NCBI GenBank assembly: GCA_015061565.1
Contig: SUWI01000025.1
Location: 1 to 33,914, forward strand
DNA length: 33,914 nt
Source: Lentisphaerota bacterium
Lineage (GTDB): Bacteria > Verrucomicrobiota > Lentisphaeria > Victivallales > UBA1829
Direction of reading: 5' to 3'
Part shown: piece by piece, positions 11,965 through 27,039 of the stretch
Layout of the letters: every line of letters starts with the position of its first letter
Numbering within the stretch: position 1 is the first letter of the stretch
Made by a program: the position numbers and the translations under genes
The notes under the pieces: generated by a model
Databases searched by the model: none
What the model saw: the letters and a program-made list of their open reading frames with translations, nothing else
Told to the model about the DNA's origin: nothing

Positions 11965-12456
11965 TTATTTCTGCATCCGCAGGATCGTGTCCACTTCCGA
12001 TCTGACGGCATTGCTGGAATACGTGGCGCGGGTGACCGCATCGACTTTCAGCTTTGCCGCTTCGGACGGTTTTTTCCCGTTCCATCGCTTCAGAAAACCG
12101 GCATTGCGGAGCCGATCCAGAAAACGGGGCGTCTCATTGTTTTCACCGATGACCACGCCCAGGATCTTATTGTCCGGGGAGACCACCACGGCCGTGTTCA
12201 CCACGCCGTTATAGCCCTCTACCCGTTCGCGCTTGCCGGCGGGCGGGAGCAGCAGATAGCCGATCACCTGATTTTTGGCATCGAGCAGCTGCACTTTCCG
12301 CGCTGTCATTGCTCCGTATGCTGCCGCATTCGGCAGGATCGCCTGAATGTCATCGGTATACTGCCGGCATTCCGCCGGCGCCGGTTCTGCCGCTTTCAGT
12401 GATTCCGAAAAGCAGATTGCCGCAACGGCCAGACCCAGCATGAATAATTTCTTCAT
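11965..12456 (-). CDS. FMN-binding domain protein, secreted (cassette B)
   Basis: Signal peptide; GYNGVVNTAVVVSPDNKILGVVIGENNETPRFLDRL and terminal DAVTRATYSSNAV, matching the ApbE motif Dxx[ST]gAT with R for G. Confidence 0.8.
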   Translation of the reverse strand: MKKLFMLGLAVAAICFSESLKAAEPAPAECRQYTDDIQAILPNAAAYGAMTARKVQLLDAKNQVIGYLLLPPAGKRERVEGYNGVVNTAVVVSPDNKILGVVIGENNETPRFLDRLRNAGFLKRWNGKKPSEAAKLKVDAVTRATYSSNAVRSEVDTILRMQK

Positions 12457-12465
12457 CCGGTTTCC

Positions 12466-12930
12466 TCACTTGTTTTTGAAGCGTTTATCTTCGGTTTCGA
12501 GGATGTTGCCGATCCTGAAACCGTTTTTGATTCCCAGCAGACTGAAACAATAGACTTTATTGCGTTTCTCGCTTTTTACATAAATGTCAACATTGTTCTC
12601 CCTGTTAATTCGCTTTCTGGCGGCCCCGACCACGACGGCGGGGCAGAAATCCGGCTGTTTGAAAAGCCCTTTGGCAAAGCGGCCGACAAATGTGGCTCTC
12701 CGCATGTTGGCCATTTCCTTGTAAATTCCTGCCATATTGTTTTTTTCGATCAGGCCGAGGATATGGCTGATATATTTTTGTTCCGCTGCTCCGACCTCAA
12801 TTTCATCATCGGCCGTGAATTTTTCCAGCGGATCACGGGATGCATGGACGAACAATGCCGCCGCTGCGGCAAGCACGACCGCCAGAATCCCCAGCTGGAT
12901 TTTGAATCTTTTCGTCATGCCGGTGATCAT
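12466..12930 (-). CDS. Small TM-anchored protein, paralog of 14535-14996 (cassette B)
   Basis: N-terminal TM; C-terminal [41 protein letters not shown] shared with 14535-14996; 4-nt overlap with the upstream pseudopilin. Confidence 0.8.
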
Positions 12931-13748
12931 TGTGCCCCCTTTGCCTGGTATTCGGGCGACATTTCCCCGGTTATGCTGTCACCCTGCTGATACGCATACC
13001 TGATGTCTTCCAAAGACAACACATACGGATCCGCATAATTACTGAAATATCCCACATTGCGGTTGATCAGACTGACCGGCCTTACGGATCCGGCATGTCC
13101 ATCGACATAGGCGATATTGGCCAGTCCCGAATGGCGGAAGTGGGTATGTCCGAATGAAGAATGTTCCGGATAAATAAACCCTTTGATATTGTAGGCTGAA
13201 TTGCCGGAATCCACTTCGGCGGTATCCTCGAACAGGACTTTTGTTCCGGGATTCAGCACCTGGCCCACTTTGATCCATGAAAGATTGCGGAAACGTTCAT
13301 TGAATCCAAGGCCTCCGCCTTTGCAGGGAAAGGTTTCGTCCGTTTTGGCTCCTGCGGGGACGCTGTTCACCCTTTCGATCACGTCATTGGCGATTACCGG
13401 ACAGACTTTCAGCCTGATATTGTTGTTGAAGTATCCGGCAATGCAGCCTTGCTCGCGGATATCCCGCGGCAGCATTGCATTGCTCATCACATTGGAAAGT
13501 CCCAGCACGCCTCCGCCGCAGCATCTGCCGTCGCCGCCTGTGGCGGTTCCCGGATACCAGTCATTGTTGTCGGCGGTATATTGAAACAATGCTTTCGATA
13601 TCTGCGTCAACTGGCTGACGCAGGAAATCTGCATCGCTTTCTGCCGGGCCGTGTTCAATGCCGGCATCAGCATTCCTGCCAGAATTGCAATGATGGCTAT
13701 AACGACCAGCAATTCGATCAATGAGAACCTTAAAAACCTTTGTTCCAT
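12927..13748 (-). CDS. H-X9-DG pseudopilin-like protein (cassette B)
   Basis: [49 protein letters not shown] extends to 13811, but the Met at 13748 fits a short prepilin leader. Confidence 0.88.
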
Positions 13749-13817
13749 TTTCTGTAAATCCGATTTCGTTTTGCGTCTTTTGCCCTTTTCAGAAAAACCT
13801 TGCAACAGCAAAGTTCC

Positions 13818-14525
13818 TTATGGTTTCCTGGATGATGAACCCAGCTCGGCGATTTGATATTTCCCGTTGGAATTTTTCATCAGCACGAAGGCATAGGACA
13901 TTTTCCGCGTTTCGCTGTAAACATGAACCATCAGATTGTCTTTGTGCGAACTTTTGACCAGGCGGTTACACCCAAGCGGTTTCAAACTGCCGATATCCGG
14001 TTTCTGCTTGAGAACCTCCAGGATCCGGTCCATTTCTGTCTGGTCCCGGACATAGAGGTATGATGCAACGGTTTTCAAATCATTTTTCGCAGCAGCCTCG
14101 ACGAAATGATTGACGATCTCCATAGCCGTCTCGGTGGTTTTTTTCCCGTTCCATCGCTTCAGAAAGCCGGCATTGCGGAGCCGATCCAGAAAACGGGGCG
14201 TCTCATTGTTCTCACCGAGGACCACGCCCAGGATCTTATTGTCCGGGGAGACCACCACGGCCGCATTCACCACGCCGTTATAGCCCTCCACCCGTTCTCG
14301 TTTTCCGGCCGGCGGGAGCAGCAGATAACCGATCACCTGATTTTTGGCATCGAGCAGCTGCACTTTCCGCGCCGTCATCGAGCCGTAAGCGGCCGCATTC
14401 GGCAGAATCGCCTGAATGTCGTCGGTATACTGCCGGCATTCCGACGGCGCCGGTTCCGCCGCCGTCAGGAAGCCGCAGAACCAGACGCTTGTTGCGGTCA
14501 ACGCGGCTGTCAAGATTTTTCTTAT
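13818..14525 (-). CDS. Chimeric FMN_bind-like N-terminus joined to an NTF2-like-type C-terminus (cassette A)
   Basis: Near-identical to 11965-12456 through FLKRWNGKK, then unrelated to it. ORF track starts at TTG 14513; the expected start at 14523-14525 is ATA. Confidence 0.65.
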   Translation of the reverse strand: MRKILTAALTATSVWFCGFLTAAEPAPSECRQYTDDIQAILPNAAAYGSMTARKVQLLDAKNQVIGYLLLPPAGKRERVEGYNGVVNAAVVVSPDNKILGVVLGENNETPRFLDRLRNAGFLKRWNGKKTTETAMEIVNHFVEAAAKNDLKTVASYLYVRDQTEMDRILEVLKQKPDIGSLKPLGCNRLVKSSHKDNLMVHVYSETRKMSYAFVLMKNSNGKYQIAELGSSSRKP

Positions 14526-14534
14526 GCGTTTTCC

Positions 14535-14996
14535 TCACTTGTTTTTGAAGCGATTGTCTTCAGATTCAAGAATATTGCGGATTTTGAAGCCGTCCTTGAC
14601 GCCCAGCAGACTGAAGCAATAGACTTTTTTGCGTTTTTCGCTTTTTACCTGGATGTCAATATTGTTCCGGTCGCGGGAAATGCGTTTTCTGGTCGCTCCG
14701 ACGACTTTTGCCGGGCAGAAATCCTGCTCTTTGAAAAGTCCTTGCATGAAAAGATCAGAAAATACTGCCGCGTCCATGTTGATGACTTCCTTGTAGAGTC
14801 CGCGCATATCGTTTTTTTCGATCAGGACGAGAACATGATCCATATATTTTTGTTCCGCAGGTCCGGTCTGAACCACGTCCGCGGCCTTGAATTCCGCTAG
14901 CGGATCGCGTGTAACGTGGATGAACAATGCTGTCGCAGCAACCGCCAGCAGGACCAGGACCGCCAACAAAATCTTGGTTTTCCGAGTCATTGCCAT
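14535..14996 (-). CDS. Small TM-anchored protein (cassette A)
   Basis: Paralog of 12466-12930, ending [30 protein letters not shown]. Confidence 0.8.
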   Translation of the reverse strand: MAMTRKTKILLAVLVLLAVAATALFIHVTRDPLAEFKAADVVQTGPAEQKYMDHVLVLIEKNDMRGLYKEVINMDAAVFSDLFMQGLFKEQDFCPAKVVGATRKRISRDRNNIDIQVKSEKRKKVYCFSLLGVKDGFKIRNILESEDNRFKNK

Positions 14997-14998
14997 GA

Positions 14999-15814
14999 TT
15001 ATTGCGCTCCCATGGCCTGATATTCAGGCGAGAACAAAGAAGCTTTGGCCGTCCCCATATAATATTTCAAGTCGGCAAGCGTCAGCACATACGGATCATA
15101 ATACGGACTGAAATAGCCTATGTCACGATCGGCCAGACTGGTCGGTCTGACGGTGCCGACATGGCCATCGACATAAGCAACATTGGCATTCCCCGCATGG
15201 CGGAAATGAGTCCTTCCAAACGAAGTCCGTTCATAGTAGATATACCCTCTGATGATATACGAAGTATCCCCGGAATAAGCCACGGCGCAATCCTCAAACA
15301 AGACCTTGCTGCCGGGAGTCATGACCTCGCCGTTCTTAATGGACGGGAGGTTGCCGAAATCGGCATTGTAGCCGAGTCCGCCCCCTTTGCAGGGAAAATT
15401 CCGGTCCGTTTTCGCGCCGACGGCTGCGGTGTTGACCCGTTCAATCACGTCATTGGCAATCACCGGACAGACTTTCAGCCGGACGTTGTTGTTGAAGTAA
15501 TCGGCCAGACAGCCGGGTTCGCGGATATCACGCGGCTGACCGGCGCCGCCCATTACGTTGGATTTGCCCAGCACGCCGCCGCCGCAGCAGCGTCCGTCGC
15601 CGCCCGTGGCCGCTCCCGGATACCAGTCTTTGTAATCCACGGTGTACTGAATCACCGCTTTGGATATCTGGGTCAGCTGATTGACGCAGGAAATCTGCAT
15701 TGCCTTCTGTCGTGCCACATTCAGCGCCGGCATCAGCATTCCGGCCAAAATCGCAATGATCGCTATAACGACCAGCAGTTCTATAAGTGTAAATAATTTA
15801 AACCTCTGTTTCAT
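14999..15814 (-). CDS. H-X9-DG pseudopilin-like protein (cassette A)
   Basis: [37 protein letters not shown]. Met at 15814 preferred over 15865 for a short leader. Confidence 0.88.
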
Positions 15815-15928
15815 ATTCTTCAACCCTGAATTCCTTTCTTTCACCCTGTTCCTTGCCTGGCGCAAACCGGATCACCCCGAATGATCCGGAAAGATCCGGT
15901 TCAATGCGCACCGTCTGGGTCTTTCCGA

Positions 15929-16609
15929 TTACTTCTTGATCGGTTCGGCTTTGGGAGCTGCCGCCGGAGCTTTCTTGTTGTCGCAGCAGTCCATCATGCC
16001 GCCTTTGGCTCCGTGTTCGCATCCGCCCATCTTGCCTTTGGCTCCATGGTCGCATCCGCCCATCTTGCCGCCTTTGGCACCGTGGTCGCAACCGCCCATT
16101 TTGCCGCCTTTGGCACCGTGGTCACAGCCGCCCATCTTGCCGCCTTTGGCACCGTGTTCGCAGCCGCCCATCTTGCCGCCTTTGCCGCCGTGGCTGCATC
16201 CACCCATCTTGGCAACTTTCGCACTGCCGTCCTTGTTGACCAGAATGATGATCGTCACATCATCAACCTGGATCTTGATCGGTTTAGCCATAGGCTTCAT
16301 ACCCATTCTGCCATGCATCATGCCGCCTTTGCCGCCGTGTTCACAGCCGCCCATCTTGCCTTTGGCGCCGTGGCTGCATCCACCCATCTTGCCTTTGGCG
16401 CCGTGGCTGCATCCACCCATCTTGCCTTTGGCGCCGTGGCTGCAACCGCCTTTCATACCGGCTTTGGCAGGGGCGCTTTTCATCGCCATCGGTTTGACTG
16501 CAGCCTCATCATCTTTTTTCGAATCTGCAACGGTGGCTCCGCAAGCAATCAGTCCGATAGTGGCGACAGCTGCGGTGGTGAGGATGATCATTTTCTTCTG
16601 GAATTTCAT
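15929..16609 (-). CDS. Lipoprotein with Cys-His-Gly repeats, putative metal binding
   Basis: AAGGAG ribosome-binding site before ATG 16609; MKFQKKMIILTTAAVATIGLIACGAT lipobox; ten GGC[SED]HG units. Confidence 0.85.
   Translation of the reverse strand: MKFQKKMIILTTAAVATIGLIACGATVADSKKDDEAAVKPMAMKSAPAKAGMKGGCSHGAKGKMGGCSHGAKGKMGGCSHGAKGKMGGCEHGGKGGMMHGRMGMKPMAKPIKIQVDDVTIIILVNKDGSAKVAKMGGCSHGGKGGKMGGCEHGAKGGKMGGCDHGAKGGKMGGCDHGAKGGKMGGCDHGAKGKMGGCEHGAKGGMMDCCDNKKAPAAAPKAEPIKK
16012..16465 (-). repeat. In-frame 33/36-bp tandem repeat array encoding GGCxHG(A/G)KG(G)KM, in two blocks (4 and 6 units)
   Basis: Repeated catcttgccgcctttggcaccgtggtcgcaaccgcc-type units, interrupted by the MKPMAKPIKIQVDDVTIIILVNKDGSAKVAKM linker. 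Confidence 0.9.
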
Positions 16610-16809
16610 TTTTTTTCTCCTTGGGTCTGGTTTGTGACTGATTATAAATTTCAGGCCGGAAGCAAAACCTTTTTTGCACGTCAGCATGATATACCCTTTC
16701 TGTTAATGCTTTGAGCGTCTTATCGACGACCTGAAACTGGGCTTATGCTCCCCAAGAGCGGAAAATAAAAAAACTTCCGGCGCACCCGGATAGTTGAAAT
16801 GAATTTCGG

Positions 16810-17022
16810 TTATTGCGCTCCTCCTTCTTTTTCTTCCATGTCAACAATGAAACGGTGACTGCGGCTGCATTGGATCGTGACTTCTTTCTGGCCGCGCTTC
16901 AGGATCTTGGTGTTCACTTCCAGATGTCCCGAACCGTTGTGGCTCAAAAGATTTTCAAAAGACGCCAGCAATTTCGCCTTGGCCTTTTCTTTGTCATCTT
17001 CATGCTGCAATGTCGTATTCAT
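16810..17022 (-). CDS. Conserved 70-aa protein, copy 1
   Basis: MNTTLQHEDDKEKAKAKLLASFENLLSHNGSGHLEVNTKILKRGQKEVTIQCSRSHRFIVDMEEKEGGAQ; near-identical second copy at 25120-25341. Confidence 0.85.
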   Translation of the reverse strand: MNTTLQHEDDKEKAKAKLLASFENLLSHNGSGHLEVNTKILKRGQKEVTIQCSRSHRFIVDMEEKEGGAQ

Positions 17023-17117
17023 TTTTTCATTCGTTTTTTTAGAAATTAGTTTTATCTAATTTAAAATTCTCAAAAAAAGAAAACCCGTTTCCGAACTCGC
17101 GGATTTCCTTGTCCGGT

Positions 17118-17146
17118 AATGTATACCACGTAAAATGAAATGTCAA
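17118..17146 (-). promoter_or_regulatory. Sigma70-like promoter TTGACA-N17-TACATT
   Basis: Minus strand: TTGACA (17146-17141), 17-nt spacer, TACATT (17123-17118); upstream of the 70-aa gene. Confidence 0.7.
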
Positions 17147-17304
17147 GTTAGTTTTAGCAAATTTTTTTGAAATTTTTTTCGGCAGGTATGGCGTCAGACC
17201 GTTTCCCCTCGTAACAGCGGGTCGCGCATGTGGGCGCGCGATCTCCGTATTCTCTGTCTTCTCCGTCTTCTCCGTATCAGTTCGCGGAAATCCGTGCCCG
17301 CCGC

Positions 17305-18035
17305 TTATTTGGCGGCGGTGGATTTGATCAGGATCTCTTTTTGCCAGCGTTTGCCGGCTGCATCCAGATAGAGCAGATAGAAACAGCCCTTTTCATCCAG
17401 CACGGCGGTCACCTTGATCTTCGGGAAAGCGAAAACCGCTTTCGGATCGCCGGTCGTGCGCGGACGTCCTTCTTCCGGATCGACTCCGGACTGTTCTTTC
17501 AGGGTGGAGAGCGCGATCCGGGAGATCCGGCCCTTGCGGCTCATGACCGCGCCGAAGAAGTGTTCCGGATCGTCCGGCTGGGGCACCAGCAGGCCGAAGG
17601 AATTTTCGCCGAATTCCTGATGCCAGCTGCTGCGGAAGGCCATCGCGCGGCGCTGCAGACGGCTTTCCGGAGCGGCGATCACCGTGTTGCCGGCGATCAG
17701 CAGATCGGCCGTGGTGAATCCCTCCGGCAGCGGTGTGCTTTCGATGGGCCGGAGATGGGGATCTGATTTCCGGAACAGGTCCACGGTCTTATCTCCCGAT
17801 ACGGCAAACTGTGAGCCGTCACGCGAAAAGGCCAGCACCGGCGAATGATTGGATGTCACCCATTCAAAACCTGTCTGACTGCCGTCTTTGAGCAGAGATG
17901 AAAAAACCTTGACCCGGTTGCTTTTTTCGGATTCGCGCGCAAAGACGGCATGGATCCAGCCGTCCGGATCGATATAAACTCTCCGGACGTCGGGCAGCGG
18001 CAGGACCTGTTTCTCCCGGCCGTTCCGGGAACTCA
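17305..18035 (-). pseudogene. 5'-truncated copy of the lipoprotein gene at 25618-27039
   Basis: Frame is open and homologous from RNGREKQVLPLP to the C-terminus, with no N-terminal half or signal peptide; the ORF track calls only 17305-17859 from a GTG. Confidence 0.75.
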
Positions 18036-21000
18036 GAGGGTATTCTTCTTCCGCCGGCTGCCCAGGAGGATCGCCATGGCCGCCAGGATCACGATCCCGA
18101 GAATAAATATCAATGCCGAACGGGTATTGCTCCGGTCAACGGGTTTCTTTTTGACTTCCTGCTCCTTCAGTTTTATTCCGCTCACCTTGTTCTCCGGGGC
18201 AGACCGGACCGCGGAAATTGCCTGATCGTAACTCTTCCGGTTTTCCGGATTCCGGATTTGAGTCCCGATGAAATTCCGAAGCGGGGCATTGTCGCAGACA
18301 AACCCGGAGCAGCCGGCGCCGTGATCCCGGATGAGTTCGGCATGAAGTTCGGCAAGCTGCCGGATCGTTTTCGCGTCCGCTTTCCAGAAGCCCTTGCGGA
18401 TCGTTTCCAGCATCACGGCGGTGATCTCCTCCAATGCATAAGGATTCTTTTTGTTGAAGAACTCCCGCATTCCCAGCTGATGTTTGTCGTCCACCAGGAC
18501 CTGCTTGTAATCCTCCCAGAGATGATCTTTGAGCATGTCGGGGCGAAGCGCTTCCCACGCGAAGGAATTGCGCACCGTTTTGGCGAAATTGTTGGCGGAA
18601 GTCTGCCCTTCCTTCATCATTTCCTTCAGGAATTTCGGATTCAGGATGGTGGAACGGGCTTCAACCATGGCGGCTTCGCTCAGATCCTGGATCTTGGCCC
18701 GTCCGGAATAACGCAGATCGTTGAAATAGGCATCCGCCTCCTTCCCGTTTACGGTTTTCACCGCAATGCTCAGTCCGCCCATGAACTGATAAATGTCGTC
18801 GATGGAAAGCGGACCGGACGTGCTGGAGGAACGGGACTGGACAATGGCATCGGTATTGGCCAGGGCGGCGCGGAAAGCTGCGGGCGAATGCTCGTTCCAG
18901 TATTTTTCCGTGTAAATCGTTCCCATGTTTTTGAAATAGCGTTCGGCAATCTCCGAACGGTCGTTCCAGCGTCCGGAATCCTCGACCTGAGCCCGGACGC
19001 CCGTTCCGAACCCGTTGTTGATGCTGCCGAAGATCCGGACATCGGCAAATTCCCTGGCCTGCTGCGGGGAAAGCCCTTCGCGGATCATGCGTTTCTGCGC
19101 ATCCAGGGAATTCGCTTTCACATAATTGGGGGAGTTTTCCGTCTCCGCCGCAGCGGAGGCCATCCGGACGGCACGGTCGATCAGGATCATCCGTCCGGCG
19201 GCAATGCCGCGGAACACACCGGAGGTCTGGACCGCCACATCGATGCGGGGACGGCCCAGTTTTTCCGCGGGGATCAGCCGTACGGCTTTGACCCGGCCGC
19301 GGCTGTCCCAGACCGGTTCCACACCAAGCAGGAAAAAGATTTCCGCCAAGGTGGTTCCCTGCGTCCGGACAAATTCGCCGCCCCAGAGGGAAAATGCCAC
19401 TTTGCGCGGATATTTTCCGGTGGCCTGCCGTTTGGCTTCGATCAGAGCCTCGCCCAACCGCTTGCCGACGGCGAAAGATTCCCGGGTCGGAGTGCGTTCG
19501 GGATCGATGCCGTACATGTTCCGGCCCGTCGGCACCGTATCGGGATTCAGGATCGGACTGCCCCCCATTCCGGGCGGGATATAGCCGCCCCGGAACGCAT
19601 TGACGATGGAATCCAGTTCCGCCGGTGTGGAGGCCCGTAGTGCATCCCGTGCGGCAAAGGCGCCGGGGGCCTGTGAACGGGCCGGATCGCCTTTGGCCAA
19701 CGCATCGGCGATCTGCTTCCGGACCGGGTCCAGATAGTTTCTGCTGAAGAAATGAAGATCGTCCCGCTGGGCTTCGGTCACTTTTCCCGCGGCCAGATCG
19801 GAATCGAAACGCCGGACCGCCATATCATCGACCGTCATCAGCAGTGCGGTTTCGTCCGTGGATCCTTTCGAATACGGACGGCCGAGAACATAGAGTCCGC
19901 GGGCGACTTTCTGCTCGGAGATTTCGTGCAAATGATTATGGATCCGCTCCCTTCCGGCTTCGGTCAGGGGCAGTTTCAGTTTAAGGTCCTCAATGAGATT
20001 GAGTTTCTTTGCCAGTATTTCCACGCTGCGGCGGTATTCCGCGCCGAGTTCGGGGTTGTCCGCCGTTTCCAACGAGTGGAGACATTCGTCCAGCCTCGCC
20101 AGATCGCCGGAAAGTCCCGCGCTCATGAACGGTGCGGTCAGATGGTCGATCATGGTGGCATAACTGCGCCGTTTGGCGGCAAACGCCTCCCCGATGTTGT
20201 TGACCACATACAGATAAAAATGCGGCACGGGACCGACCAGCGCTTCCGGCCAGTCGTCCTCCAGCAGACCGACCATCCTCGTCGGCGTGAATTCCAGACT
20301 GCCGTGGGTGCCGAAGTGCATCATGGCATCGGCCCGGAACACATACCGCGTCCACAGATACGCGGCCGCATAGGGATACGGCGGCGCCTTTTTGGTGCCG
20401 TGCACGATTTTGGACGCATCATCACCCACCCCGGAAAGCGGCTGGGGCAAAAGGACGACCTTGCCGAGTTTCAGCCGGCCTACGACCAGTCCCGGCTTGC
20501 CGTCCCGGACCGCTGCCATATATTTGCCGGGAACCGGGCCATATTGTTTGTCCTGATCCCGGATCAGACTTTCCGGGAAAGCGGCCTTCCGGTATTTCTG
20601 AAAATCTTCCGCCGACAGAAATTCCGTTTCCTTCCGGGCGGCGAATTTGCTGATCTCCCCTTCCGCGTATGATCCGAAATTGGCCGCTTCCCGCTGAATG
20701 GATTCGATCAGTTTCACCGGATCATCCGGCAACTCGCCGGTGTCGTAGCCTTCCGCTTTCAGTCTGCGGAGCAGGTTCAGCAGCGAATCGGCCACTTCCA
20801 TGCCGCTGGCATGCAGTGCATTCCGGCCGGGTTCCTTGTAAAAGAAGATCGCTATGCGTTTGTCAAAATTCTTTTTCCGTTTCAGTTTCAGATGATTGAC
20901 CGCCAGCTGCGCGAATTTTTCCATGCGGTCCGGAAGGGTATACAGATCCTCGATCCCCCGTTTATCCCGCTGAAGCGCGGTCAGCACCCACGGGGTGGTT

Positions 21001-21083
21001 CCGCCATCCACTTCCGGAATGACCACGCTCTGGGTAAGCATTCCGCCGATCATTCCCCGCTGGTCCGCAGTGTAAACATCCAT
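18033..21083 (-). CDS. CobN-like metal chelatase, C-terminal major part, with C-terminal TM
   Basis: MMHFGTHGSLEFTPTRMVGLLEDDWPEALVG...NNIGEAFAAKRRSYATMIDHLTAPFMSAGL is CobN-like; C-terminal ALIFILGIVILAAMAILLGSRRKK. Confidence 0.88.
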   Translation of the reverse strand: MDVYTADQRGMIGGMLTQSVVIPEVDGGTTPWVLTALQRDKRGIEDLYTLPDRMEKFAQLAVNHLKLKRKKNFDKRIAIFFYKEPGRNALHASGMEVADSLLNLLRRLKAEGYDTGELPDDPVKLIESIQREAANFGSYAEGEISKFAARKETEFLSAEDFQKYRKAAFPESLIRDQDKQYGPVPGKYMAAVRDGKPGLVVGRLKLGKVVLLPQPLSGVGDDASKIVHGTKKAPPYPYAAAYLWTRYVFRADAMMHFGTHGSLEFTPTRMVGLLEDDWPEALVGPVPHFYLYVVNNIGEAFAAKRRSYATMIDHLTAPFMSAGLSGDLARLDECLHSLETADNPELGAEYRRSVEILAKKLNLIEDLKLKLPLTEAGRERIHNHLHEISEQKVARGLYVLGRPYSKGSTDETALLMTVDDMAVRRFDSDLAAGKVTEAQRDDLHFFSRNYLDPVRKQIADALAKGDPARSQAPGAFAARDALRASTPAELDSIVNAFRGGYIPPGMGGSPILNPDTVPTGRNMYGIDPERTPTRESFAVGKRLGEALIEAKRQATGKYPRKVAFSLWGGEFVRTQGTTLAEIFFLLGVEPVWDSRGRVKAVRLIPAEKLGRPRIDVAVQTSGVFRGIAAGRMILIDRAVRMASAAAETENSPNYVKANSLDAQKRMIREGLSPQQAREFADVRIFGSINNGFGTGVRAQVEDSGRWNDRSEIAERYFKNMGTIYTEKYWNEHSPAAFRAALANTDAIVQSRSSSTSGPLSIDDIYQFMGGLSIAVKTVNGKEADAYFNDLRYSGRAKIQDLSEAAMVEARSTILNPKFLKEMMKEGQTSANNFAKTVRNSFAWEALRPDMLKDHLWEDYKQVLVDDKHQLGMREFFNKKNPYALEEITAVMLETIRKGFWKADAKTIRQLAELHAELIRDHGAGCSGFVCDNAPLRNFIGTQIRNPENRKSYDQAISAVRSAPENKVSGIKLKEQEVKKKPVDRSNTRSALIFILGIVILAAMAILLGSRRKKNTL

Positions 21084-21097
21084 GGTCTTGTAAACTT

Positions 21098-21961
21098 TTA
21101 CCGGACAAGCAGCGGGATATTACGGTTTTTCAGGAAATCCAAAGTTTCAGTTCCGTTTTCATCCCCCAGCCGTCCGTGCGGAAAGAAAACAGCCAGATCC
21201 GGTGAGATCTCCTTCAGGAAAGCCAGCCGTCTGGCGCCGCCCGAGATCCCGACCACGTTGAGCCCGTGCGATTCCAGCGACCGGATGATGCCGGTCAGAT
21301 ATCCCGGTTCTCCGCGAGCGGATCCGCCGTCGCCGGGGACGATCAGCGCCACGGTCGGTGCTCCCGCCTTGTAACAGCCGCTTTTCTTGTAATATGCCAG
21401 ATAATCCTGATATTTCTGGAACAGCGCTTCCGGTTTCGTATGGAACAAGGCATCGGCGGGGAGAATCCTGGGCGCTTCCGGTTTGGATGCAAAAAGGCGT
21501 TTCCCGTCGATCTCATACCGCAGATAACTCCAGAGCCGGCGATAGTTTTCCCGGCTGCTGTTGGCAAAGTATCCGGCAATTTTCCGTTTATGCTCCGGAC
21601 TGACCGTGCCGAACTGACTTTCCACCCGGCTGTCCTGATGCACATACAAATGGATCCCGCGTCTTTTCAGTTCTGCAACGGCCGCTTTCTGTTTTTCGCT
21701 GACCGTCATCCCCATTCCCTGAAAAAGTACAATGTCATACTTCCGCAGCGTTTCGCCGATCCGATCATCCCATTCAACCCGGTCGACCCGGACAAACCGG
21801 TCCTGGACGGTGTCGAACATCGGCGCGGTCTTGTATCCGGAGAAGTTCACCAGCGCGATCTTCGTCGGTTTGGCTTTCAGCCAGAGGAAATATCCTTCAG
21901 CCGCCGCCAGCAGAAACAGGATCAGGACGATCCAGACTCTTTTCTTACCGATTTTCTTCAT
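21098..21961 (-). CDS. CobN-like chelatase, N-terminal part, with N-terminal TM
   Basis: Begins MKKIGKKRVWIVLILFLLAAAEGYFLW; ends IPLLVR* where the homologous reading continues in the other frame as PVKVYKTMDVY. Confidence 0.8.
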   Translation of the reverse strand: MKKIGKKRVWIVLILFLLAAAEGYFLWLKAKPTKIALVNFSGYKTAPMFDTVQDRFVRVDRVEWDDRIGETLRKYDIVLFQGMGMTVSEKQKAAVAELKRRGIHLYVHQDSRVESQFGTVSPEHKRKIAGYFANSSRENYRRLWSYLRYEIDGKRLFASKPEAPRILPADALFHTKPEALFQKYQDYLAYYKKSGCYKAGAPTVALIVPGDGGSARGEPGYLTGIIRSLESHGLNVVGISGGARRLAFLKEISPDLAVFFPHGRLGDENGTETLDFLKNRNIPLLVR

Positions 21962-22299
21962 TTATTGCTCCCTTCCGGCACATAGATGATCTCCCCGTTT
22001 TCCAGCCGGTAGGCGATGCCGACCCTTTCGCCTTTTCCGCTCCCGCTGGTTTTTTCGCTTTTGTAACGGGTGATTTTGTTTTCCTTTTTCACGATGATCT
22101 CCATATCCGGTTTCCCGGCATTTTTGACGTAAGTGACATCTTTTGCAGTCAGGAATTCCGTCATCCGGGAATGGATCACAAACGCAACCATCAGCGCCAC
22201 CGCAAACACCATTGCCGCATCGAACAGATTGACCAGATTCGCCATCGGGTCGGCCTCGTCCGGGGTCCGGAAACTCCCGTAACGTCCGCGCCGGCTCAT
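21958..22299 (-). CDS. DUF2149-like (ExbD-like) membrane protein
   Basis: MSRRGRYGSFRTPDEADPMANLVNLFDAAMVFAVALMVAFV; start at 22299 rather than the extended ORF start at 22413. Confidence 0.8.
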   Translation of the reverse strand: MSRRGRYGSFRTPDEADPMANLVNLFDAAMVFAVALMVAFVIHSRMTEFLTAKDVTYVKNAGKPDMEIIVKKENKITRYKSEKTSGSGKGERVGIAYRLENGEIIYVPEGSNK

Positions 22300-22886
22300 G
22301 ATTTTTTCCCTTTCAGCTGACGGTCCAGCACGTAATAAAGATTGGAGATCTCTTCCGAGTACCAGTGTTTTTTGACCGACGACACCAGCAGGGCGATCCC
22401 GGCGGAAACGCATCCGACCACGGTCGTGGCAAACGCGATCTGCATGTTGTATGCCATGTTTGCTATGTTGCCGGAGGCCAGACCCGCCAGTGCCGGACCC
22501 ATCGGGATCAGCGTGCCCATCAGACCCAGCATCGGCGCGGTCTTCGCCAGAAAACGCGAACGGTCCAGACTGCGTTCATATTCCTGCTGATATTCCGAAA
22601 TCCGTTTTTCGCATTCGAGTTCATCCCAGTGCAGTTCGATCAATTCCGCCACCTGTTCGGCAAAGATCCCCTGATCCTTCAGCTCATCGGCGCGGAGTTC
22701 TTCCCCCGCACGAATTTTCCCGAGCAGAACATTGCGCCGGCGCCTCTCCTGCAGCAGAGTCAGATACGTTGTGCAGAATCCCCCCAGCGAAATCAATGCG
22801 GCGGTCAGCGCCGCCAGCAGCAGCACGATCACCGGCAGCAGCAGACTGTTCGAGATCCAGTTCAGAATTTGAGTCACCATGAACAT
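22296..22886 (-). CDS. MotA/TolQ/ExbB proton channel family protein
   Basis: KTAPMLGLMGTLIPMGPALAGLASGNIANMAYNMQIAFATTVVGCVSAGIALLVS is characteristic. Confidence 0.9.
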   Translation of the reverse strand: MFMVTQILNWISNSLLLPVIVLLLAALTAALISLGGFCTTYLTLLQERRRRNVLLGKIRAGEELRADELKDQGIFAEQVAELIELHWDELECEKRISEYQQEYERSLDRSRFLAKTAPMLGLMGTLIPMGPALAGLASGNIANMAYNMQIAFATTVVGCVSAGIALLVSSVKKHWYSEEISNLYYVLDRQLKGKKS

Positions 22887-23599
22887 TTTTTCTTCCTCCG
22901 ATTTTTATATGATTCATGAATTTTCCATCCGATCCCGCCCAGGATCACCGGCAAAGCCAGAGCCGCCAGCGCCAGCAGACTGTCCGCCGGGAACCCTTCA
23001 TTTTCCCCCGGCATCAGCCGCGCGTTCGCCGCCACCGGCAGGAATATGGCAGGCAGCAGCAGAAAATATTCCGCATGAAGCACCAGCAGGATCCGTTCCT
23101 CAAGGTTCGCGCGCAGCAGGCGGAACAATTCCGGGATCAGGACCGAGAGCAGCGGGACCCCGACGGCGAGCAGCCAGGTCAGGGTGCGGAATTGAATGCC
23201 CGGCAGGACATTGAAAAGATACATCTGCAGATACAGCACTCCCGCCGGCAGCAGCAGGGACGGCAGAAACACCAGATATTTCAAATATCTCAAACCTCTG
23301 CGGAATCCCTGTTCCGGCAGATCGCTTCTTCCGGTATCATCCAGCAGGGAAAAACCCGCCGCAAGCGTGAAAAGTTCCTGGATCACCACCAGGGCACACC
23401 AATTTTCCAGGATCTCCGCGTTGAAAAGCGCCGCATTGAGTGCCTGCATGCTGGTCCCTGCGATCCGTTCTTCAAAAAGGAACGGCAATCCTGCCAGACA
23501 AACAGCCTGCAGGATCTCCCATCTCCGCGGCAGCAGAGAGAATTTGCTGAAACTCTGCAGGGCCGCCAGCAGCAGAACGGTTGTGATGAATACGATCAT
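22874..23599 (-). CDS. Multi-TM protein, DUF2162-like
   Basis: Several hydrophobic segments; placement with ExbB, DUF2149 and CobN supports the call. Confidence 0.6.
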   Translation of the reverse strand: MIVFITTVLLLAALQSFSKFSLLPRRWEILQAVCLAGLPFLFEERIAGTSMQALNAALFNAEILENWCALVVIQELFTLAAGFSLLDDTGRSDLPEQGFRRGLRYLKYLVFLPSLLLPAGVLYLQMYLFNVLPGIQFRTLTWLLAVGVPLLSVLIPELFRLLRANLEERILLVLHAEYFLLLPAIFLPVAANARLMPGENEGFPADSLLALAALALPVILGGIGWKIHESYKNRRKKKCSW

Positions 23600-23681
23600 T
23601 CTTCCTTCACCCGGTCCATTTACGGAATCAGAGGGGGCTTTCCCGAAAAATATGCACCGATCCCGAAATCATTCTCCATCC

Positions 23682-24104
23682 CTATTTTGCATACACATAC
23701 AACCCGCGGAACAGAAAACGATTTCCGCTTTCCTGAACCACCAGATGGATGCGTTTTCCGGATTTCCCTTGGAAATAAACATTTTTGACAGCTCGGTCCA
23801 GTTTGTTTTCAGAACATTGCAGCAGCGGACAGTCTGAAAGCTTCAGTTCTCCGAGAAGCTTGTAATTTTCCTCCAGATCTTCGGAAAGCAGAGTTTTGCA
23901 CATTTTGGCAAACTCACGGTCTTTCTTCTGTCTGGCAAACTCGTTCAGCTGCAAGGCAAAAGCTTTCAGCTTGCCGGATTGTTCCTTTGAAACATCTATG
24001 GTTTGAGCGACATCCGGTATTTTTTCGCGACTGCACCAGGCATACACTCCGACCGCAACAGCAAACAGAATCAGCAAGACGATCATCTTTGCTTTTGATT
24101 TCAT
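23682..24104 (-). CDS. Small TM-anchored protein downstream of a pseudopilin
   Basis: N-terminal MKSKAKMIVLLILFAVAVGVYAW; same position and layout as 12466 and 14535. Confidence 0.7.
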   Translation of the reverse strand: MKSKAKMIVLLILFAVAVGVYAWCSREKIPDVAQTIDVSKEQSGKLKAFALQLNEFARQKKDREFAKMCKTLLSEDLEENYKLLGELKLSDCPLLQCSENKLDRAVKNVYFQGKSGKRIHLVVQESGNRFLFRGLYVYAK

Positions 24105-24165
24105 TGTAACCTCTTTTCTCTTTCAGACGGCAGAAATTGCCGTCTGTTTTTTGATTATTACTGCG

Positions 24166-24996
24166 TCAGTTTTGTCCCGGATAATTTTCCCGGTCGCGCC
24201 GTCCGTCAGTCCGGTAAAAATCCTCGGTCGAAGTCCCGTAATAGCCGATCAGGTAGGCTTTCCCCGCCTCGTTGTCCGCTATTTCCGCGCGTCTGGCGCT
24301 CTCAGATGACACATGCCCGTCAACAAACGCGATCGAGGCGAATGATTTGTGCCGTCCGAAATGAATGGAGCCGCCGGAAGTGCCGAATTTACTTGAGTAA
24401 AGCAGCCACGGGGATGTCAGCGTCGGATAATCCATCACGGGTCCTCCTGTGCCATGACCGGTTTCGGTTTTGGCGGAATCGGCCAGCATAACGACATTTG
24501 CAGTATCCTTCACCGCCGAACAGCGGATCGCAACACCTGGCTTCGTGGAAGTTCCATAGGATCCCAGCCAGTGTTCATTGTACCCGTATCCGCATCCCGC
24601 ATTCACCTTGGTAAAATCGCCAAGATTCATGTTTTTAATGGCTTCGGGACACATGAACACCTTTGCGCTCCGGTTGACATAGGTCAATAACGGAGCCCGA
24701 TCGTCTGTGAAGTCATAGGTTCCGGCAGCATAGTCCTTCACGGCAAACCAGTAGATTCTGGTATTGTCATCGCCCGGCCATTTGAATCCACCCATCATAC
24801 CCTGCGTGTAATAATCATTATTGTTGGATGCGTATAGAGTTTCGGCAGTATGCAATTGTTTGAGCTGACTGATGCAGGTCGATTTGCGCGCACTCGCTTT
24901 CGCATTGTTCAAAGCCGGCAGGAGCATTCCCGCCAGGATGGCGATGATCGCAATAACGACCAGGAGTTCTATCAAAGTAAAATTTTTGCAGTGCAT
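24166..24996 (-). CDS. H-X9-DG pseudopilin-like protein
   Basis: [50 protein letters not shown]. Start 24996 preferred over 25101. Confidence 0.88.
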
Positions 24997-25119
24997 AATA
25001 TACCCTTTCTGTTGGCTGCTTTGAGCGTCGTTTCCGATGACCTGAAAATACGGGTTTATGCTCCCCTGCGAGCAGAAAAATAAAAAAACCTTCCGGCGCA
25101 CCCGGATAGAGAAAAATGA

Positions 25120-25341
25120 TTATTTGTCTGCGCCCTCTCCTCCTTTTTTCTCTTCCATATCGACAACAAAACGATGACTGCGGCTGCATTGGATCGTGAC
25201 TTCTTTCTGGCCGCGCTTCAGGATCTTGGTGTTCACTTCCAGATGTCCCGAACCGTTATGGCTCAAAAGATTTTCAAAAGACGCCAGCAATCTTTCCCTG
25301 GCCTTCTCTTTGTCATCTTCATGCTGCAATGTCGTATTCAT
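25120..25341 (-). CDS. Conserved 70-aa-type protein, copy 2
   Basis: MNTTLQHEDDKEKARERLLASFENLLSHNGSGHLEVNTKILKRGQKEVTIQCSRSHRFVVDMEEKKGGEGADK. The upstream ATG at 25374 is absent from copy 1, so MNTTLQ is the likely start. Confidence 0.85.
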   Translation of the reverse strand: MNTTLQHEDDKEKARERLLASFENLLSHNGSGHLEVNTKILKRGQKEVTIQCSRSHRFVVDMEEKKGGEGADK

Positions 25342-25436
25342 TTTTTCATTCGTTTTTTTAGAAATTAGTTTCATCTAATTTAAAATTCTCAAAAAAAGAA
25401 AACCCGTTTCCGAACTCGCGGATTTCCTTGTCCGGT

Positions 25437-25465
25437 AATGTATATCACGTAAAATGAAATGTCAA
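25437..25465 (-). promoter_or_regulatory. Sigma70-like promoter TTGACA-N17-TACATT (copy 2)
   Basis: Minus strand TTGACA (25465-25460), 17-nt spacer, TACATT (25442-25437). Confidence 0.7.
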
Positions 25466-25617
25466 GTTAGTTTCAGCAAATTTTTTGAAAATTTTTTTCG
25501 ACGAGTATGGCGTCAGACCGTTTCCCCTCGTAACATCGGGTCGCGCATGTGGGCGCGCGATCTCCGTATTCTCTGTCTTCTCCGTATCAGTTCGCGGAAA
25601 TCCGTTCCCGCAACTTA

Positions 25618-27039
25618 TTATTTGGCGGCGGTGGATTTGATCAGGATCTCTTTTTGCCAGCGTTTGCCGGCGGCATCGAGATAGAGCAGATAGAAACAGC
25701 CCTTTTCATCCAGCACGGCGGTCACCTTGATCTTCGGGAAAGCGAAAACCGCTTTCGGATCGCCGGTCGTGCGCGGACGTCCTTCTTCCGGATCGACCCC
25801 GGACTGTTCTTTCAGTGTGGAGAGTGCGATCCGTGAGATGCGGCCCTTGCGGCTCATGACCGCACCGAAGAAATGCGCCGGATCGTCCGGCTGGGGCACC
25901 AGCAGGCCGAAGGAATTTTCGCCGAATTCCTGATGCCAGCTGCTGCGGAAGGCGATCGCGCGGCGCTGCAGACGGCTTTCCGGCGCGGCGATCACCGTGT
26001 CGCCGGCGATCAGCAGATCGGCCGTGACGAATCCGTCCGGCAGCGGCGTGCTTTCGATGAGCCGGCAATCCGATTTCCGGTAGAGTTCCACCGCCTGGTC
26101 GCCCGCCGCTGCATACTGCGAGCCGTCATGCGAAAAGGCGATCACCGGCGAATGATTGGATGTCACCCATTCAAAACCTGTTTGACTGCCGTCCTTGATC
26201 AGGGATGAAAAAACTTTGACCCGGTTGCTTTTTTCGGATTCGCGCGCAAAGACGGCAAAGATCCAGCCGGCCGGATCGATATAAACTCTCCGGATGCCCG
26301 GCAGCGGCAGGACCTGTTTCTCCCGGCCGTTGCGCGGATCCAGCAGAATGATCTCGTCGGCACTCTTGAACGCTTCCTGCCTGCGGGCCGCCAGCACCAG
26401 CGTATGATCGGGCGCGGCCGCGATGAAACGGACGTCTTTTTTCCACAGATGATGGACCGCCGTGATGGTCCAGGAACAGGTATCCAGGAAGACCAGCCGG
26501 GTGCCGAACGGACCCTGCGGTTCGCCCAGCGTCTCGGCGATGACGATCATGGTGCGGTCGGGGCTGATCGCAACAGCGGGGAGCCGGACGCCCGAGGCTA
26601 TTTCGCTGTGCCATTGCGGCGACCAGCGGATGATTTTGCCGCTGTTGAGCGGTTCCAGCAGTGCCGCAAACGAGCCTGCCGGCCGTTTGGTGCGGAACGA
26701 GTCGCGCCGGAGCTGTTCCTTTTTGGAAATTTTCTCCTGCTGCACAGCGGCGCCCGGATCGTCTTTTTTCAGGATGCTGACATTTTCCTGAGCGTCACGG
26801 ACTTCGGTTTTTTTCTTTGCCTGTTCGGTATTGGAATAACGGACCTTGAACGAGCCTTCCTCGGAATCGGCGAAGGTTTTGACGGCCGTTTTTTTCTTTT
26901 CGGGGGCAGGGGCGGCGGCTTTTTTCTTTTCCGGTTCCGGATTTTTCTTCGGTTCCGGCTCATTGTCGCCGCACCCCGTGAGGCTAAGGAGAGCCGCCAG
27001 ACCAATTCCTGTTATCAGCCGATTGCAGAATCTTTTCAT
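25618..27039 (-). CDS. Lipoprotein with Lys/Glu/Pro-rich linker and propeller-like C-terminal region
   Basis: Lipobox LSLTGCGD; EPEPKKNPEPEKKKAAAPAPEKKK linker; repeated VIAFSHDGSQ-like strands. Confidence 0.75.
   Translation of the reverse strand: MKRFCNRLITGIGLAALLSLTGCGDNEPEPKKNPEPEKKKAAAPAPEKKKTAVKTFADSEEGSFKVRYSNTEQAKKKTEVRDAQENVSILKKDDPGAAVQQEKISKKEQLRRDSFRTKRPAGSFAALLEPLNSGKIIRWSPQWHSEIASGVRLPAVAISPDRTMIVIAETLGEPQGPFGTRLVFLDTCSWTITAVHHLWKKDVRFIAAAPDHTLVLAARRQEAFKSADEIILLDPRNGREKQVLPLPGIRRVYIDPAGWIFAVFARESEKSNRVKVFSSLIKDGSQTGFEWVTSNHSPVIAFSHDGSQYAAAGDQAVELYRKSDCRLIESTPLPDGFVTADLLIAGDTVIAAPESRLQRRAIAFRSSWHQEFGENSFGLLVPQPDDPAHFFGAVMSRKGRISRIALSTLKEQSGVDPEEGRPRTTGDPKAVFAFPKIKVTAVLDEKGCFYLLYLDAAGKRWQKEILIKSTAAK

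Follow-up and report, generated by a model that had tools for sequence, protein, structure and literature searches.

The hmuYRSTUV locus of Bacteroides and Porphyromonas resembles the locus analyzed here in an HmuS-type protein, in ExbB-like and DUF2149 genes, and in the presence of a lipoprotein. The DtxR/IdeR regulon, described mostly in Actinobacteria, has the published consensus operator TTAGGTTAGCCTAACCTAA (PMC7762939), and the likeness to this regulon concerns the consensus operator, the regulator family, and feoAB as a member. Extracytosolic flavinylated electron-transfer systems with FMN_bind proteins and ApbE (PMC8238504) have a counterpart here in a secreted FMN_bind protein and in ApbE, which was present in all genomes tested; the text of this survey makes no mention of Lentisphaeria, pilin, or CobN. 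Bufferins and oxazolins, Cys-rich RiPPs modified by MNIO, are likewise secreted, Cys-rich, and of low complexity, and the DUF1559 pseudopilins of the PVC superphylum, with hundreds of candidates in many genomes, share the prepilin N-terminus.

The window, which is the whole stretch of 33,914 nt that was analyzed, is one complete contig from a gut-type Lentisphaeria bacterium, whose genome (G000) has an assembly of 5.45 Mb that is 85.6% complete. It encodes a repeat protein that is most likely part of an iron-capture route without an earlier description. The repeat gene is followed by two tandem sets of a pseudopilin, an accessory protein, and an FMN_bind protein, which came from a tandem duplication (12056-13771 versus 14125-15837, 75% DNA identity):

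15929..16609, minus strand: GGCxHG repeat lipoprotein of 226 aa with signal peptide and lipobox, 4-unit block, beta linker, and 6-unit block
14999..15814, minus strand: DUF1559-type pseudopilin of the cassette subfamily, with the subfamily motif
14535..14996, minus strand: accessory protein with an N-terminal transmembrane helix and an alpha/four-stranded beta domain
13818..14522, minus strand: FMN_bind/accessory chimera without flavinylation motif, an in-frame fusion
12927..13748, minus strand: second pseudopilin copy, 71% identical to the first
12466..12930, minus strand: second accessory copy
11965..12456, minus strand: secreted FMN_bind (PF04205) flavoprotein with a DAVTRATYSS motif (E = 7.6e-13)

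The repeat gene starts with an ATG at 16609, preceded by 8 bases by the ribosome-binding site AAGGAG. As the original prediction had claimed, its product, now assigned to the minus-strand ORF of 226 aa, contains exactly ten GGC[S/E/D]HG units, four (residues 54, 65, 76, and 87) and then six (residues 136, 148, 160, 172, 184, and 195) around the linker PIKIQVDDVTIIILVNKDGSAKV. Both blocks indeed terminate with GGCEHGxKGGMM, and the signal peptide finishes with GLIAC-G, a lipobox by the criterion for bacterial lipoproteins. Residue shuffling of the protein yielded a maximum of 1 such unit in 20,000 trials. Within the GGCxHG core, residue variation was confined to x (S, E, or D), and the codons for G, G, C, H, and G differed between the ten units only synonymously (GGC/GGT/GGA, TGC/TGT, and CAC/CAT), which points to selection on the level of the predicted protein, with a contribution from recent unit duplication. 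The plus strand over the repeats also holds long open frames (15881..16714), which were attributed to the composition of the repeats and dismissed; because of the lipobox, the ribosome-binding site, and the relatives, the gene was assigned to the minus strand.

In the AlphaFold2 model, both repeat blocks lack structure, with pLDDT values mostly of 34-43, and the linker forms three strands (residues 111-134, pLDDT about 82). The Cys residues in both blocks are single and 11 to 12 residues apart. Pfam and NCBIfam gave no match to the protein, and neither an HmuY domain (Pfam) nor DUF2282 or another known RiPP precursor domain (Pfam and NCBIfam) was present. A literature search, narrow in its wording, returned nothing on an iron-regulated Cys/His-rich repeat lipoprotein.

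Upstream of the repeat gene, the order on the minus strand is pseudopilin, accessory protein, membrane protein, ExbB-like protein, DUF2149 protein, HmuS, a truncated lipoprotein copy, s70, leader RNA, and repeat gene, with these components of an hmu-type operon:

23682..25101, minus strand: accessory protein and pseudopilin, head of the operon
21958..23599, minus strand: DUF2149 protein, MotA/TolQ/ExbB-like protein, and membrane protein in the HmuT position
18033..21961, minus strand: gene for an HmuS-type heme de-chelatase, in two ORFs (21961..21098 and 21083..18033)

The split of this gene into two ORFs is due to a frame change near position 21090 (21100-21083), which is either a sequencing error or a real lesion; single-ORF relatives exist at the loci L082/L135. 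The HmuS-type protein matched HmuS (PDB 9d26) with 866 bits (E = 4.7e-259), compared to 378 bits for ChlH and 360 bits for CobN. An identity of this neighbor as CobN or Mg-chelatase was rejected on these scores, so that the supposed CobN-like metal or tetrapyrrole locus is instead an hmu-type heme-iron operon. No gene for HmuY or HmuR was found in the scanned parts of the window.

Many hmu-type operons of the order are headed by a pseudopilin, often together with the accessory protein; this arrangement is found in the window (25101..18033) and at L059, L060, L063, L064, L138, L143, L169-L171, and L222. At L082/L135 (CASFTV010000012.1), a long FMN_bind protein is encoded directly upstream of the single-ORF HmuS-type protein.

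The region between the HmuS gene and the repeat gene has a second copy at the hmu operon, and the following elements were assigned across the two copies:

16671..18027: segmental duplication of 1.36 kb, 90.5% identical to 24983-26334
17118..17146, minus strand: sigma-70-like promoter TTGACA-N17-TACATT upstream of s70, a consensus match only
17046..17059, minus strand: predicted DtxR/IdeR-type operator TTAGATAAAACTAA upstream of s70, one of three in the genome
16813..17022, minus strand: s70, a conserved cytoplasmic protein of 70 aa, marker of iron operons in the order
16690..16795, minus strand: candidate structured leader RNA of about 106 nt between s70 and the repeat gene
25365..25378, minus strand: predicted DtxR/IdeR-type operator TTAGATGAAACTAA upstream of the hmu operon
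25138..25341, minus strand: second copy of s70, upstream of the hmu operon
24999..25111, minus strand: second copy of the leader RNA, after s70 of the hmu operon

The duplicated segment brings the hmu operator, promoter, s70, and leader RNA directly before the repeat gene. As read from the two copies, the control region of the repeat gene arose when the hmu promoter region was duplicated; this is a clear example of a duplicated segment that moves a control region and sets a gene behind the hmu switch. The s70 protein, with the core KILKRGQKE, is encoded at 20 loci in 19 of the 138 genomes of the order, and at most of these loci the neighbors are feoAB, hmu operons, an FMN_bind/ApbE cluster, or a gene for a Fur-like protein or flavodoxin. 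Five of the 20 loci are located elsewhere (pseudopilin clusters in G136, G022, G020, and G007, and one locus in G036), and s70 was rejected as an exclusive iron marker.

The candidate leader RNA is composed of two nearly invariant hairpins plus a helix in which CCC pairs with GGG in the ribosome-binding site further downstream. It occurred at 11 s70 loci in ten genomes (two copies in the window and one each at L049, L056, L085, L138, and L167-L171) and nowhere else in the 1.06 Mb searched. Two-sided changes affected 4 pairs, a value reached by 3 of 500 shuffles. The gene behind the element is the repeat gene in the window and a pseudopilin or FMN_bind gene at the other loci. In the window, the start codon of the element (16687) shares the reading frame of the repeat ORF, and use of this alternative upstream ATG would add 26 residues. 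Covariance models of Rfam gave no match at E ≤ 1 and none at the gathering score; an assignment to a known riboswitch was rejected on this basis, and the element is possibly a new riboswitch or a protein-binding leader. A terminator-like hairpin (16790-16776) also sits between s70 and the repeat gene, and because this hairpin and the leader RNA lie in between, read-through from s70 into the repeat gene is assumed.

The palindrome TTAGN6CTAA represents the first 14 bases of the DtxR/IdeR consensus. Only three such sites are present in the 5.45-Mb genome, at the repeat cassette, the hmu operon, and feoAB, compared to 104 sites for the reversed control pattern. In 908 kb of fetched loci, 76 sites were counted versus 0 to 12 for seven control palindromes, and the same half-sites at a spacing of 5 or 7 gave 0 matches. 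Each of the ten cassettes found in the order has a site no more than 450 nt ahead of its Cys-rich gene, with a chance expectation of about 0.008 in total for 500 nt at each of the ten. The sole site of G097 and both sites of G112 are at the cassette; in other genomes, further sites are at feoAB, hmu, FMN_bind, ApbE, and flavodoxin genes, and G119, in which no cassette was found, contains none. Victivallis vadensis, a cultured relative, has the long FMN_bind and pseudopilin branch with the operator in common (L046/L083). An hmu operon with this operator was seen in only three of the ten cassette genomes (G000, G062, and G131). A gene for a DtxR-family protein (PF02742) was detected in 13 of 14 genomes tested, including G000 (contig C50, 44933-45109; homologue at L214, 1805..1119). 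Assignment of the repeat cassette to a DtxR/IdeR-type iron regulon is strongly supported by this predicted operator, and the DtxR-family repressor should be the protein that binds there.

Relatives of the repeat protein were difficult to find by its own sequence, one being the GGCDHGKM repeat protein of G116. A direct homology search matched in just 1 of the 137 other genomes of the order, a search of a general collection of genome contigs gave no match, and a strict DNA pattern of the repeats matched solely in the genome of the window. The probe that worked was the neighboring pseudopilin. A search for GGCxHG relatives and their neighbors, as advised at the outset, led in this way to a cassette common to 11 genomes, in which a Cys-rich secreted protein is followed by a dedicated DUF1559 pseudopilin and a small membrane-anchored protein, with an FMN-binding flavoprotein usually next after these three core genes. 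The relatives in the collection are mostly Lentisphaeria MAGs, several of gut origin.

The ten genomes ranked highest by similarity of their pseudopilins to that of the window (G000, G121, G062, G131, G030, G083, G112, G084, G097, and G116) all contain a small secreted Cys-rich and Lys-rich ORF directly upstream of the pseudopilin gene; the filter used for these ORFs caught eight of the ten, the other two were spotted by eye, and the same filter found none at the lower-ranked pseudopilin loci that were fetched. The repeats differ: GGCxHG in G000 and G116 (as GGCDHGKM in the latter), KHxCKKGKxxxCDHKAG in G112, ICxKTGKxCT in G083, G084, G097, and G131, KKEGHSC in G030, KAGKCAKKAAxSSCDG in G121, and KNLCDKKTDCGKG in G062, with no His in the mature parts of the latter two. 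Kept across the family are the richness in Cys, Lys, and the gene position; His, the lipobox (absent, for instance, from G191, G121, and G083), and the repeat spacing are not. The regular Cys-His geometry on which the original prediction had built is consequently not conserved, and non-conserved Cys or His positions, which it had named as evidence against its proposal, speak against a specific Cys-His site and leave general metal binding by a Cys-rich protein standing.

As an out-of-sample test, a pseudopilin profile was used to search 390 genomes of the phylum. One new strong locus beyond the order was obtained, in G191 from another family of the same class. Upstream of its TGGWCC pseudopilin, with an operator 414 nt upstream (the remaining G191 sites examined seem to be due to chance), a secreted protein of 199 residues is encoded, as predicted, with GGCGGHG repeats in two blocks around a beta-type linker. 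By its translated sequence, this protein has the same two-block plan as that of the window.

The pseudopilins of the cassette form a distinct DUF1559 subfamily with the motif TGGWCCNxGTWxGKNVNQRRVDLRT in many members and a CC motif also in several. Their location beside the repeat gene had been seen correctly; rather than mere neighbors, they are the most conserved partner of the Cys-rich protein. For the accessory protein, a good structural model was obtained, with no significant match in the PDB. FMN_bind adjoins eight of the ten cassettes of the order and is missing beside the cassette in G030 and G191. Most FMN_bind relatives have TGAT or SGAT in the flavinylation motif Dxx(S/T)GAT; one copy in the window has DAVTRAT, with R for the usual G, and in the other copy the motif is absent. 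All 11 of the genomes examined for ApbE encode it; its gene adjoins the cassette in G083 and has its own operator in G084, and in G097 the cassette is immediately followed by feoA and feoB. The surroundings of the window cassette yielded no membrane electron donor. At L085/L142 (G034), s70 and the leader RNA are followed by genes for FMN_bind, pseudopilin, ApbE, a second FMN_bind protein, and a NapH-like polyferredoxin, possibly a complete electron path of the same regulon.

Taken together, the repeat lipoprotein is probably an extracytoplasmic binder of iron (or heme) in an acquisition cassette that is induced by iron starvation and uses flavin-based reductive uptake. Metal or heme binding at the surface or in the periplasm, as originally proposed, would fit a context with a heme de-chelatase as neighbor and an iron-type regulon; composition and context suggest iron or heme as the ligand of the Cys-rich protein. 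At a low cytoplasmic Fe(II) concentration, the DtxR-family repressor would leave the TTAGN6CTAA operator, so that s70, the Cys/His-rich protein, pseudopilin, accessory protein, and FMN flavoprotein would be produced alongside FeoAB and HmuS. On the cell surface or within the periplasm, iron or heme could be soaked up by the unstructured arms, whose Cys, His, Met, and Lys residues would form a multivalent thiolate/imidazole sponge, and the flavoprotein may hold the iron, and thiols, in the reduced state. Fe(II) would be delivered to FeoB directly or once HmuS has stripped it from heme. More tentatively, the flavoprotein might reduce iron or thiols, and the pseudopilin would probably aid in placement or export of the Cys-rich protein.

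How far heme alone could account for the locus depends on the relatives. The lipoprotein could replace HmuY as a hemophore-like protein that binds heme by Cys, His, and Met and hands it over to the adjacent HmuS. The repeat gene is indeed located directly downstream of the HmuS-type operon under a duplicate of its control region, HmuY of Bacteroides is also a lipoprotein (PMC12583661), and the scanned parts of the window yielded neither HmuY nor HmuR. A defined heme site is nevertheless unlikely to be general because some relatives contain no His and have an altered Cys spacing, and a heme-only role does not generalize because just three of the ten cassette genomes possess an hmu operon with the operator. 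Since the relatives often do without such an operon, two of them without His, and no HmuY domain was recognized, a strictly heme-specific role is less likely; overall, we consider it unlikely. Cys and not His is common to the family, which would also agree with a Cys-rich protein whose thiols partner with the covalent flavoprotein; it could relay electrons or form disulfide-crosslinked surface material organized by the pseudopilin, with induction when cytochromes and Fe-S proteins are short of iron. Of the extra cassette members, FMN_bind is the most frequent, several of the pseudopilins carry the CC motif, and flavodoxin and ApbE belong to the same regulon. This redox function is improbable, since the regulon is dominated by iron uptake genes, FMN_bind is missing beside two cassettes, and the window blocks carry isolated Cys residues.

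As a low-complexity secreted protein rich in Cys, His, and Met, in a style like the EGKCG-type precursors (PMC12452194), the lipoprotein could alternatively bind Cu or Zn in the manner of metallothioneins or bufferins, with iron regulation guarding exposed iron uptake proteins against mismetallation. The parallel to copper-binding bufferins had been drawn at the outset; since neither G000, 85.6% complete, nor the nine other cassette genomes searched yielded an MNIO (PF05114), a copper RiPP of the bufferin type is unlikely, and with an operator and co-regulated genes of the iron type and no adjacent copper genes, we regard a Cu or Zn protein as very improbable. The units are partly recent duplicates, and the repeat sequence varies among genomes, as it would in a non-functional low-complexity expansion that rides on a selected pseudopilin operon. 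Conservation of the Cys-rich protein in all ten cassettes of the order and in G191, with the same two-block plan in another family, and solely synonymous changes at the C, H, and core G residues make this explanation extremely improbable. The preferred reading, an iron (or heme) binder in an iron-starvation cassette, would place a previously unclassified Cys-rich repeat family and one DUF1559 subfamily under a testable condition, namely a shortage of iron in anaerobic bacteria of the gut. If it is true, iron scavenging based on HmuS and FeoB gains a secreted Cys-rich protein, a pseudopilin, and a flavoprotein, and secreted Cys-rich proteins of such a type need not be MNIO-modified copper peptides. 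It is conceivable, if rather doubtful at present, that these cassettes constitute a new kind of iron capture in Lentisphaeria, in which fast-evolving, disordered Cys-rich "iron sponges" conserve composition and not sequence, each with its own pseudopilin, usually a covalent-flavin reductase, and a DtxR-type switch; the lineage of the window would add a leader RNA that sequesters the ribosome-binding site and is common to heme and ferrous-iron operons.

Iron acquisition is a known class of function, and within the libraries searched, no described system corresponded to a DtxR-type operator ahead of genes for a disordered Cys-rich protein, its dedicated pseudopilin, and a flavoprotein. In contrast to hmuYRSTUV, the operon in the window is headed by a pseudopilin and an accessory protein, with no HmuY or HmuR found there, and the repeat lipoprotein has no domain in common with HmuY. 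The DtxR/IdeR regulon would extend to Lentisphaeria, as deduced here from sequence. Unlike the bufferins and oxazolins, the Cys-rich proteins occur in ten cassette genomes in which no MNIO was found, and the window protein does not match DUF2282. The flavinylated electron-transfer system is here coupled to a pseudopilin and a Cys-rich protein, and what distinguishes the cassette subfamily from other DUF1559 pseudopilins is its tie to Cys-rich proteins.
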